From NCBI GenBank assembly GCA_018969785.1, contig JAGWXR010000007.1:1-39854 (forward strand): a stretch of 39,854 nt of DNA. Direction: 5' to 3'. Position numbers and translations under genes: made by a program. This document shows, piece after piece, positions 23,727 to 37,735 of the stretch (the first letter of the stretch is position 1; the number at the start of each line of letters is the position of its first letter). The notes beneath the pieces were generated by a model. That model was given only the letters and a program-made list of their open reading frames with translations. It was not told where the DNA came from and made no database searches. This DNA is from Alphaproteobacteria bacterium. Lineage in GTDB: Bacteria; Pseudomonadota; Alphaproteobacteria; Micropepsales; Micropepsaceae.

Positions 23727-24464
23727 GTGACCACCATTCGCCTCATCCTGTTTCAGCTCTATTTCTGGTCCTGGTCTGCCCTGATCAACCTGGCCTACCT
23801 GCCGGCGCTCCTGATGCCCCGGCGCGTCGTGGCGCATGGCATGGAGATCTGGGCGCGCGTCTGCTTCTGGGGCCTTCGGCACATCGTGGGGCTCGACTTC
23901 GAGGTGCGTGGACGCGAGAACCTGCCTGCCGGACCGGCGATCTTCGCGGTCAAGCACATGTCGATGTGGGAGACGATCGCGCAGCACATCCTGCTGCCGG
24001 ATCCGGCGATCGTCATGAAGCGCGAATTGCTGATCCTGCCCTTCTACGGCTGGTATGCGCGCAAGTGCGAGATGATCGTGATCGATCGCGACGGCCACGC
24101 GGCGGCACTGCGCAACATGATCCGCACGGCGCGCGAACGCATTACTGCCGGCCGGCCGATCGTCATCTTCCCTGAGGGTACGCGCAAGCTGCCGGGCGAT
24201 GCTCCCGACTACAAGCCAGGCGTGGCTGCGCTCTATGGGTCGCTGCACGTTCCCTGCGTTCCGGTGGCGCTCAATTCAGGGCAGTTCTGGAGCCGCAAGG
24301 GCATCAGCCCGCGGCCGGGGCGGATCGTGCTCGAGATCCTGCCCCCGATCCAGCCGGGGCTGGCGCGCGGGCGCTTCATGGCGGACCTCGAGGCCGGCAT
24401 CGAGACGGCCACGCGGCGGCTGCTTGAAGAAGGACAAATGCAGCCGTCGACGGCGGTTGCCTGA
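23727..24464 (+). CDS. plsC: Lysophospholipid acyltransferase (PlsC family)
   Basis: Acylates 1-acyl-glycerol-3-phosphate or a related lysolipid at the inner membrane. In the 245-aa protein the catalytic motif reads KHMSMWET, an H-x4-E variant of the usual H-x4-D, as is common in this alphaproteobacterial branch. Motif II is MKRELLILPFYGWYARK, motif III IVIFPEGTRKLPG and motif IV VPCVPVALNSG. An N-terminal hydrophobic helix (LILFQLYFWSWSALINLAYL) anchors it. The start is GTG 23727. It is the last gene of the ftsE-ftsX operon. Its presence a few kb from the OlsB-like gene allows an OlsA role, which is not proven. Confidence 0.9.
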   Translation: MTTIRLILFQLYFWSWSALINLAYLPALLMPRRVVAHGMEIWARVCFWGLRHIVGLDFEVRGRENLPAGPAIFAVKHMSMWETIAQHILLPDPAIVMKRELLILPFYGWYARKCEMIVIDRDGHAAALRNMIRTARERITAGRPIVIFPEGTRKLPGDAPDYKPGVAALYGSLHVPCVPVALNSGQFWSRKGISPRPGRIVLEILPPIQPGLARGRFMADLEAGIETATRRLLEEGQMQPSTAVA

Positions 24465-24510: not shown

Positions 24511-24525
24511 GAACATAGCGCGAAC
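24511..24525 (-). promoter_or_regulatory. LexA (SOS) box in front of the ribonucleotide reductase gene
   Basis: GAACATAGCGCGAAC on the plus strand, read GTTC-GCGCTAT-GTTC on the other, is an exact GTTC-N7-GTTC match to the alphaproteobacterial LexA consensus. It lies 64 bp before the reductase ATG and 6 bp upstream of a plausible -35 box. Regulation of the reductase by DNA damage is inferred. Confidence 0.6.
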
Positions 24526-24531
24526 GCTTTA

Positions 24532-24560
24532 TTGTGACGTTCACGACCGTCATGTAAAGT
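24532..24560 (+). promoter_or_regulatory. Probable promoter of the ribonucleotide reductase gene
   Basis: TTGTGA (24532-24537) and TAAAGT (24555-24560) are separated by exactly 17 bp and give a short leader before the ATG at 24590. The LexA box ends 6 bp upstream of the -35 box. Confidence 0.45.
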
Positions 24561-24589: not shown

Positions 24590-26977
24590 ATGAATGGCCC
24601 GGGCGATATCTCGCGGCAGATCTGGGATCTGAAGTACCGTCTCAAGGGCGCTGGCACCACCAGCGAGGAGACGATCGCGGACACGTGGGCGCGGGTTGCG
24701 GGCGCGGTTGCGCTGGCCGAACGTGCCGAGACGCGCGCGCACTGGCGAGACCAGTTCCTCGGCATCCTGCAGGACTATCGTTTCCTGCCGGCCGGGCGCA
24801 TCCTTGCAGGTGCCGGGTCGGGGCGTGCGGTGACGCTGTTCAACTGCTTCGTGATGGGCACGATCCCGGACGACATGGCGGGGATCTTCGAGAGCCTGAA
24901 GGAAGCCGCGCTGACCATGCAGCAGGGCGGCGGGATCGGGCATGACTTCTCGACGCTGCGGCCGCGCGGGGCGCCGGTCAAGCGCGTGGGCGCGGACGCG
25001 TCGGGACCCGTGTCGTTCATGGATGTCTGGGATGGCATGTGCAAGACCGTCATGTCGGCCGGCGCGCGGCGCGGGGCGATGATGGCGACGCTGCGCTGCG
25101 ACCATCCGGACATCGAGGCCTTCATCGAGGCGAAGCGCGAGAAGGACAGGCTGCGGAATTTCAACCTGTCTGTGCTTGTCACGGACCGCTTCATCGAGGC
25201 CGTGCGCCAGGACGAAGCCTGGGACCTCGTGTTCGAAGGCCAGGTCTATCGCACCGTGTCGGCGCGCGGGCTGTGGGACCGCATCATGGCGTCGACCTAT
25301 GCCTATGCCGAGCCCGGGGTCATCTTCATCGACCGGATCAATGCGCGGAACAATCTCTGGTACGCCGAGCGGATCTCGGCGACGAACCCGTGCGGCGAGC
25401 AACCGCTGCCGCCCTATGGGGCGTGCCTGCTGGGGTCGCTCAACCTTGTCACGTTCGTGCGCGATCCGTTCAGCGATGCCGCGCGGCTGGACGAGGCGGC
25501 GCTGGATGCAGTCGCGCGCGTGGCCGTGCGCTTCCTCGATGACGTGGTCGACGTGTCGAACTATCCGCTGCCGCAGCAGGAGCGGGAAGCCAAGTCCAAG
25601 CGCCGGATCGGCCTTGGCGTCACGGGGCTGGCGGATGCGCTGATCATGTGCCGGGCTAGCTATGGCAGCGCGGAGTCGCTGCGACTGATCGAGCGCTGGA
25701 TGGGCTGCATCCGGCGCGCGGCCTATCTGGCGTCGTGCGAGATCGCTGCCGAGAAAGGCCCCTTCCCGCTCTTCCAGCGCGAGCCCTATCTTGACGGGGC
25801 GAGCGTGAGGGAGCTCGAGGATGACGTGCGCGCGGCCATTCGCACGCAGGGCATCCGCAACGCGCTGCTCACGTCGATCGCGCCCACGGGGACGATCTCG
25901 CTTGTGGCCGACAATGTGTCCTCGGGGATCGAGCCCGTGTTTGCCTATGCCTATCGGCGCAAGATCCTTCTGGCGTCGGGCGAAGCCCACGAGCAGGTCG
26001 TGGAGGACCACGCCTACCGCCTCTACCGCAAGCAGTTCGGCGAGGGTGCGCTGCCCGACTATTTCGTGAATGCACAGGACCTGTCGCCGGAGGCCCATAT
26101 CGCGGTACAGGCGGCCGTGCAGAAGTACGTCGACAGCTCGATTTCCAAGACCGTGAACTGCCCGGCCGACATTCCCTTCGAGCGGTTCAAGGACATCTAC
26201 CTCAAGGCGCATGACAGTGGCTGCAAGGGCTGCACCACATGGCGGCCGAACGACGTCACGGGATCGGTGCTGACCCCGGTCGAGACGCCGGCACCTGCTG
26301 CGGGCGTGCCGGAGGAAGCGGACGCAGCCGGCAGCGTTGCCGGGGCTGTGCCGGCGCGGCCGAAGCCCGTGTCGACGGAGGGCGGGGTCGTCTACATGAC
26401 GCGTCCGCTCGACCGTCCGGAGGCGCTGCCAGGGACGACCTACAAGGTGCGCTGGCCCGATTCGGACCATGCGATCTACATCACGCTCAACGACATCATC
26501 GAGGGTGGGCGGCGACGTCCGTTCGAAATCTTCATCAACTCCAAGAACATGGAGCATTACGCGTGGACGGTTGCGCTCACGCGCATGATCAGCGCGGTAT
26601 TCCGGCGCGGCGGCGACGTTTCGTTCGTCGTCGACGAGCTGAAGGCCGTGTTCGATCCGCGTGGCGGGCAGTGGGTCAACCGGCAATATGTACCCTCGCT
26701 GCTGGCGGCGATCGGCGGGGTGATCGAGGAGCACATGCTCGCGATCGGGTTCCTGACGCGCGCGACGGATGCGCCCGCCGTGCCGGCCAAGGTGGCGATG
26801 ATTTCAGATCGGCTTGCGCCTGCGCCCGAGACAGCGGGTCCGCTGGCGGGCGCGGCTCCTGACCTGCCCGCGGCGGGGCTGTCGACCAAGTTCTGCCCGC
26901 GCTGCAGCAGTCCCGGGCTGATCCGCATCGAGGGCTGCGATACCTGCCTGAACTGCGGCCACTCGCGATGCGGGTGA
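24590..26977 (+). CDS. nrdJ: Adenosylcobalamin-dependent (class II) ribonucleoside-diphosphate reductase
   Basis: Reduces ribonucleotides to deoxyribonucleotides with a thiyl radical made from adenosylcobalamin, independent of oxygen. In this 795-aa protein the redox pair is C86 (TLFNCFVMG) and C279, with the radical Cys C268 in NPCGEQPLPPYGAC; the 11-residue spacing C268-C279 matches class II enzymes, and E270 is the catalytic Glu. There is no N-terminal ATP cone. The Met-Gln-Gln-Gly-Gly-Gly-Ile-Gly loop and the PTGTISL phosphate-binding block are present. A Pro/Ala linker (around 565-600) leads to a C-terminal domain ending in a zinc ribbon, CPRC…CDTCLNCG, that re-reduces the active site. 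AdoCbl would come from the PduO enzyme. Confidence 0.95.
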   Translation: MNGPGDISRQIWDLKYRLKGAGTTSEETIADTWARVAGAVALAERAETRAHWRDQFLGILQDYRFLPAGRILAGAGSGRAVTLFNCFVMGTIPDDMAGIFESLKEAALTMQQGGGIGHDFSTLRPRGAPVKRVGADASGPVSFMDVWDGMCKTVMSAGARRGAMMATLRCDHPDIEAFIEAKREKDRLRNFNLSVLVTDRFIEAVRQDEAWDLVFEGQVYRTVSARGLWDRIMASTYAYAEPGVIFIDRINARNNLWYAERISATNPCGEQPLPPYGACLLGSLNLVTFVRDPFSDAARLDEAALDAVARVAVRFLDDVVDVSNYPLPQQEREAKSKRRIGLGVTGLADALIMCRASYGSAESLRLIERWMGCIRRAAYLASCEIAAEKGPFPLFQREPYLDGASVRELEDDVRAAIRTQGIRNALLTSIAPTGTISLVADNVSSGIEPVFAYAYRRKILLASGEAHEQVVEDHAYRLYRKQFGEGALPDYFVNAQDLSPEAHIAVQAAVQKYVDSSISKTVNCPADIPFERFKDIYLKAHDSGCKGCTTWRPNDVTGSVLTPVETPAPAAGVPEEADAAGSVAGAVPARPKPVSTEGGVVYMTRPLDRPEALPGTTYKVRWPDSDHAIYITLNDIIEGGRRRPFEIFINSKNMEHYAWTVALTRMISAVFRRGGDVSFVVDELKAVFDPRGGQWVNRQYVPSLLAAIGGVIEEHMLAIGFLTRATDAPAVPAKVAMISDRLAPAPETAGPLAGAAPDLPAAGLSTKFCPRCSSPGLIRIEGCDTCLNCGHSRCG

Positions 26978-26984
26978 GCGCCAT

Positions 26985-28130
26985 GTGCAGACGGTGACGA
27001 ACGTGCGCTTTGCCGCCAACGTGATGACACGGATGCGCGACGTCGGCGCCTGGGTCCGCCAGCAGGCCTTGCTGCGCTGGCGCAGCGTCGTGATCCTGAT
27101 CCCGGTTGCGGCCATCGCGCTGGGGCTTGCCGGCTATGGCGTGTGGTGGCGCATGCTTGCCGACCGGGTGCAGGAAACGCTGTCGGGGATCCAGGGTGAG
27201 CAGAAGGCCCTGGGACGGAACCTCGAGTGGAGTGCGCTGACGATCGGCGGGTTTCCCTACATGGTCGATGCGACGCTGAGCAAGACGCGGCTGCTTGCAC
27301 CCGACATCGGCACCGTGTGGGACGGCGAGCGCGTGGTGGTGCGGCTGCGGCCGCTCTCGCCCGGATCGATCAAGATCTCGCTCGAGGGGCCGCAGCACTT
27401 CCTGCACGTCGCCAACGGACGGTGGATCGAGGGCGATGTCGAGGCGGACAAGGCCCTCATTTCCGGGCGCAGCAAGGACACGATGCAATCCGTGTCGGCG
27501 GAGTTCGAGCGGCTGACCGGCAAGGGACGGCTGGATGCCTCGGATGTGTCCTTCATCCTCGAGCGGGGTGTTGCGGGCCTGGCGCTCAACGCGGCGCCGG
27601 GCGCGACGGACCTGCCGCGCCTCGACCTGTCGGCGCAGGTGACGAACCTTGCGCTGCAGGGACAGGTCGCGCTGCCGCTGGGTCCGGCGGTCGACAGCCT
27701 TGCCATCGACATCGGGCTTTCACTGCCGCGGACCCTGCCGGTGGCGACGGCCGATGCGGTGCTGGCGGCGTGGCGAGCGACGGCGACGCCTGTCGAGATC
27801 AGGACCTTCTCGTTCGAGTGGGGTGGCGTCTACCTTGCGGCGACGGGAAAGCTGCTGGTCAATGCGCAGGGCCTTCCGGAAGGCAACCTGAAGCTCACGA
27901 TCGGGAATCATTCGCGGATGCTCCAGGTGATGGAGGAGCTGGGCTGGATCTCGCGCGAGACGCATGCGCGCGCCAAGCCGATCCTTGATGTCATGGCCTT
28001 CGTGAGCGGCGATCCCAAGCGCAAGATCAGCGTGCCGCTGCGCTTTGCGGGGCGGGATGTCTACCTGGGGCCTGCGCGGGTGCTGACGCTGGAACCGCCG
28101 GCGCGCAACGGCGATCCTGCCCTGCCCTGA
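26985..28130 (+). CDS. DUF2125 family protein
   Basis: A 381-aa protein with one N-terminal membrane helix (VVILIPVAAIALGLAGYGVWW, in two parts) and a large periplasmic beta-rich domain. The motif LEWSALTIGGFPYMVDATLS, followed by PLSPGSIKISLEGPQH, is the DUF2125 signature; the domain recalls AsmA-like lipid-binding folds. Function is unknown. GTG 26985 is the first start, but GTG 26994 or ATG 27024 would leave the helix intact. It follows the reductase by seven bases and ends 11 bp from the convergent tyrC, a pairing seen elsewhere in the class. Confidence 0.82.
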   Translation: MQTVTNVRFAANVMTRMRDVGAWVRQQALLRWRSVVILIPVAAIALGLAGYGVWWRMLADRVQETLSGIQGEQKALGRNLEWSALTIGGFPYMVDATLSKTRLLAPDIGTVWDGERVVVRLRPLSPGSIKISLEGPQHFLHVANGRWIEGDVEADKALISGRSKDTMQSVSAEFERLTGKGRLDASDVSFILERGVAGLALNAAPGATDLPRLDLSAQVTNLALQGQVALPLGPAVDSLAIDIGLSLPRTLPVATADAVLAAWRATATPVEIRTFSFEWGGVYLAATGKLLVNAQGLPEGNLKLTIGNHSRMLQVMEELGWISRETHARAKPILDVMAFVSGDPKRKISVPLRFAGRDVYLGPARVLTLEPPARNGDPALP

Positions 28131-37648: not shown

Positions 37649-37735
37649 GGACCTGTTGTTCCTGCAAGGTTCGGGGACACGACCCTCGCAGGCTTGAATT
37701 TAGCTTTCCTTAATCGGCCCGGTCGTTGCGGGGGT

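Follow-up and report, generated by a model that had tools for sequence, protein, structure and literature searches.

Known SOS operators and damage-inducible reductases

The published SOS box of Caulobacter crescentus is GTTCN7GTTC (PMC12700426, PMC9578287). The operator of the C. crescentus LexA/SOS regulon and that of the lineage analyzed here share sequence and spacing, and the lineage also carries it at lexA, recA and uvrA. Compared to the C. crescentus regulon, the gene for a class II ribonucleotide reductase (nrdJ) appears as an additional target in the family of the window, which is the whole analyzed stretch of 39,854 nucleotides. In a text search, a single recent Caulobacter SOS paper (PMC12700426) gave no hits for nrd genes or ribonucleotide reductase. 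No report of a LexA-controlled class II reductase was found in the open-access literature searched; an earlier listing is possible, for example in the classic paper on the alphaproteobacterial LexA regulon (Erill 2004).

The closest described enzymes are short NrdJ proteins of the Thermotoga maritima type (TIGR02504, 1xje), which have the same core domain and active-site residues as the NrdJ of the window. Its cysteine-rich C-terminal tail resembles a zinc-finger domain that many class II enzymes are described to have (PMC5704485). Only the regulation differs from other short NrdJ proteins: a LexA operator is found in the window's family, whereas most close homologues elsewhere have none.

Damage-inducible reductase subunits are known from eukaryotes, namely p53R2 in mammals and Rnr3 in yeast. 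The likeness is one of functional analogy only, in that a second reductase component is apparently reserved for DNA damage. The regulators are unrelated, and the family of the window would use a whole B12-dependent enzyme under a bacterial repressor. The supply of dNTPs limits repair synthesis as well as translesion mutagenesis; whether a reductase is under SOS control must be established gene by gene.

The box upstream of nrdJ and its conservation

An exact LexA-type box, GAACATAGCGCGAAC, is located at positions 24511-24525 on the + strand and reads GTTCGCGCTATGTTC on the - strand. This candidate operator consists of two GAAC half-sites in direct repeat, separated by the seven bases ATAGCGC. 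The gap that holds it measures 125 bp and is flanked by an acyltransferase ORF, which ends at 24464, and by nrdJ; 64 bp separate the box from the nrdJ ATG at 24590. The first-pass annotation had described an exact box 6 bp before a plausible nrdJ promoter, and this was confirmed. The best-scoring sigma-70-type pair in a script scan comprises a -35 element TTGTGA (24532-24537, + strand), which begins 6 bp 3' of the box, and a -10 element TAAAGT (24555-24560, + strand) after a 17-bp spacer. Both elements are consensus-based predictions only. All eight genus promoters compared have TA...T at the position of the -10 element. No cobalamin riboswitch was found in the window at Rfam gathering scores.

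A box of eight fixed bases has to be weighed against chance, as the same annotation had cautioned. The window contains two matches to GTTC-N7-GTTC where 0.76 are expected, and 14 of 100 shuffles reach two, so that the window match by itself is weak evidence and only mildly unlikely. Genome-wide, 50 exact matches face 38 for the pattern written backwards, which indicates that most exact matches in the genome arise by chance. The second match in the window (37658-37672, + strand) lies within a long coding ORF and is probably such a case. By arithmetic from the genome-wide density, approximately 0.002 matches are expected in the 125-bp gap. The significance of the nrdJ box derives from its conservation across the family and not from the single match.

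For this comparison, the nrdJ search covered 40 relatives at different taxonomic ranks as well as the 96 genomes of the window's family, and the upstream DNA of nrdJ was read in 76 genomes. The exact box is present in 50 of these 76 upstream regions, with the same orientation in 49 of the 50. Within 220 bp upstream of nrdJ it occurs in 49 of 71 family members and in 9 of 10 members of the window's genus. Over 300 dinucleotide-preserving shuffles, the count corresponding to 49/71 averaged 0.46 and never exceeded 3, and permuted 4-mer half-sites were found in 0 to 5 of the 76 regions versus 50 for GAAC. A chance occurrence of the eight-base pattern could point to the genome-wide counts and to the second match inside a coding ORF. 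It is statistically refuted, since 49 orthologues out of 71 share the promoter position where 0.46 are expected; the box is also absent from the promoters of other reductases, and we regard chance as hardly credible.

The half-sites were fixed by the search, whereas the seven bases between them vary among the nrdJ boxes. Variable bases beside constant half-sites fit protein contacts rather than mere sequence relatedness. The exact box is absent from 22 of the 71 family nrdJ genes. Genomes without it mostly show no near-match either, thus the presence of the box is close to all-or-none.

Outside the family the box is rare. A wider scan detected it within 300 bp in 11 of 79 loci from named genomes or MAGs, and some of these matches are likely due to chance, judging by distance or orientation. 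The nrdJ homologues of Rhodobacterales lack the box except for one match in the opposite orientation, and most homologues of Rhodospirillales are also devoid of it. The conservation proposed as a check in the first-pass annotation is therefore seen in the window's family and in a few other families; it does not extend across alphaproteobacterial nrdJ genes. On a tree of 151 sequences, the presence of the box requires 17 changes; counted within the family, it requires nine.

Identity of the motif and its position at the promoter

The genome of the window encodes one LexA (lexA on contig C194). Two exact boxes are located 19 and 45 bp before lexA and one exact box 46 bp before uvrA. Among relatives of the same genus, 7 of 8 recA promoters read contain an exact box, about 110 to 125 bp ahead of the recA start. 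Nearer the gene, close to the recA -10 element, all genus members read (L213-L222) have a further conserved repeat, GAAC-N7-GTAC. They include the window's genome, whose own recA has only this variant and no exact box. GAAC-N7-GTAC at recA is probably a variant with a modified LexA half-site. A lexA gene was detected in 85 of the 96 family genomes. Since the motif is placed before lexA, uvrA and the recA of relatives, it can be regarded as the LexA operator of this lineage, as had been assumed from its sequence at first.

About ten further exact boxes in the same genome have a TATT-type core possibly overlapping a -10 element (L008, L014, L018, L029, L196, L197, L198, L202, L203 and L208, on contigs of this genome). 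Examples of products encoded near these boxes are an OmpA-family protein, ribosomal protein S6, a TetR regulator and a nitroreductase; several other ORFs nearby are unknown. These boxes are candidates for further SOS promoters.

The TATT-type core differs from the bases between the half-sites of the nrdJ boxes, which often read ATA or ATT after the first GAAC, and a few family genomes encode a second LexA-type DNA-binding protein. Both observations would suit a different regulator that shares GAAC half-sites, for example a LexA-like phage repressor or a factor specific for ribonucleotide reductase. However, the same eight bases with the same spacing stand before lexA, uvrA and the recA of relatives, the TATT core elsewhere can be explained by overlap with the -10 element, and a search at the short nrdJ with a rough pattern yielded no NrdR-like palindrome. 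We consider such a regulator very improbable and LexA the likely ligand of the nrdJ box.

The position of the box relative to the promoter is informative about the mode of regulation. The best -35 element sits 5 to 7 bp 3' of the box in 34 of 49 promoters. In the genus of the window, 8 of the 9 box-bearing members have a gap of exactly 6 bp and a spacer of exactly 17 bp. The box of the window lies entirely 5' of the predicted -35 element, so repression at this promoter would require a LexA footprint reaching over the -35 element. In at least five relatives the best predicted promoter puts the box over the -35 element or inside the spacer. The ninth box-bearing genus member (G001) has it between -35 and -10. 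Coverage of the -35 element by the box is seen in a group of genus g5 (G022, G092, G099, G108 and probably also G084 and G110).

The main rival to repression is an activator role, in which LexA binds the box but activates or optimizes basal nrdJ transcription, and DNA damage lowers expression or changes it only modestly. The near-fixed distance of 5 to 7 bp in 34 promoters offers a place that an activator could use. Dual activity of LexA is also reported for an alphaproteobacterium, Rhodobacter sphaeroides; LexA is named as an activator for recA of this species in the title of Tapias et al. 2002 (cited in PMC9380542 and PMC8565304). Against this, a dimer bound on the -35 element or in the spacer of several relatives would block the polymerase, and the gap is not constant but amounts to 5, 6 or 7 bp. 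Many other exact boxes of the genome have, by eye, an A+T-rich core able to overlap the -10 element, which is a repressor position. The activator role thus seems unlikely. Retention of the box despite its shift into positions that block the polymerase fits repression best. The first-pass annotation had left activation and partial repression both possible, and the overlap with the -35 element or spacer in several relatives makes the balance lean to repression.

The reductases of the family and a model for SOS control

The gene downstream of the box, nrdJ (24590-26977, + strand), codes for a class II (adenosylcobalamin-dependent) ribonucleotide reductase of the short form with 795 amino acids, a TSCPD domain and a C-terminal cysteine-rich tail (NCBIfam TIGR02504; Pfam PF02867, PF00317 and PF12637). 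Its score against TIGR02504 is 568.9 bits at a cut-off of 399.95. The active-site residues C86, N266, C268, E270 and C279, which include the motif N266-P-C268-G-E270, align with those of the Thermotoga maritima NrdJ chain 1xje. The protein is an intact class II enzyme, and its B12 dependence is expected from family membership. A DUF2125 ORF (26985-28130, + strand; Pfam PF09898) starts 8 bp after the nrdJ stop. It is probably co-transcribed with nrdJ and, if so, may be SOS-controlled too.

The genome also encodes a long NrdJ (about 1238 residues). A class I small subunit was not detected in the assembly, which is 87% complete. Upstream of the long nrdJ, the box was found in 0 of 17 genomes (that of the window and 16 relatives). 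It is likewise missing at promoter distance from the class I gene nrdA in all 36 family genomes that have this gene, with two of the upstream regions shortened by contig ends. The operator is therefore specific to the short nrdJ and not a property of reductase genes in general. It had been proposed at first that SOS control would tie the dNTP supply during repair to cobalamin. This argument turned out weaker: SOS control does not newly create such a tie, because the second reductase detected in the genome, the long NrdJ, is B12-dependent as well. The cobalamin link is real at the level of the enzyme, but it is not special to SOS since the housekeeping candidate belongs to class II as well.

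The locus is best read as that of a second class II reductase, the short NrdJ, which LexA controls directly and DNA damage induces. We assign a probability of roughly 0.86 to the claim that the box is a functional LexA operator which places this second, short reductase in the SOS regulon. From comparative sequence data we infer binding of LexA, repression rather than activation, induction by damage and the physiological role of the short NrdJ. In undamaged cells, LexA on the direct repeat adjoining the -35 element (over this element in some relatives) would exclude RNA polymerase. DNA damage would activate RecA and lead to self-cleavage of LexA and derepression of nrdJ; the cell thus probably switches on the short nrdJ upon DNA damage. 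The extra reductase could then provide more dNTPs for repair and translesion synthesis; normal replication would be served by the long NrdJ, together with NrdAB in some relatives.

A wider proposal, which we hold to be only slightly better than an even bet, is that the family keeps two complete class II reductases, a long NrdJ without LexA operator and a short NrdJ held by LexA for damage. This arrangement would be a bacterial counterpart of the eukaryotic damage-reserved subunits. Where class I NrdAB occurs, the operator would tend to be missing, as though an emergency function became dispensable once another reductase is available. Loss of the box is indeed more common in genomes with class I NrdB (15 of 26 versus 7 of 45; Fisher p 0.0004, with kinship ignored). 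Independent pairs on the tree number only two for the association and zero to two against it, so the association is not established once kinship is considered.

Other accounts of the distribution were rejected. A shift of SOS control to nrdAB in genomes that lost the nrdJ box does not agree with the 0 of 36 nrdA upstream regions. Loss of lexA as the cause of box loss is unsupported, as most family genomes without the box have lexA. The idea that the short NrdJ is under SOS control only where another reductase does the housekeeping was also discarded: 46 of 50 named genomes lie above the long-NrdJ cut-off, and most of them lack the box. Box-less Rhodobacterales and Rhodospirillales also carry both the short and the long NrdJ, therefore the box is not required for having two class II reductases.

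A conserved direct operator on a dedicated second reductase would offer a natural system with a growth isozyme and a damage isozyme in one cell, for which the relatives that lost the operator are built-in controls. Whether an SOS-induced expansion of dNTPs helps survival or mutagenesis can be tested by a change of the eight bases.

In some family genomes an in-frame insert of approximately 350 to 400 residues splits the short NrdJ near residues 263-269, at the catalytic NPCGE motif with Cys268. Such inserts were observed in G050, G055, G066, G074, G076, G078, G079, G094 and G095 (loci L262-L266 for five of them). The insert at the active site looks like an intein.
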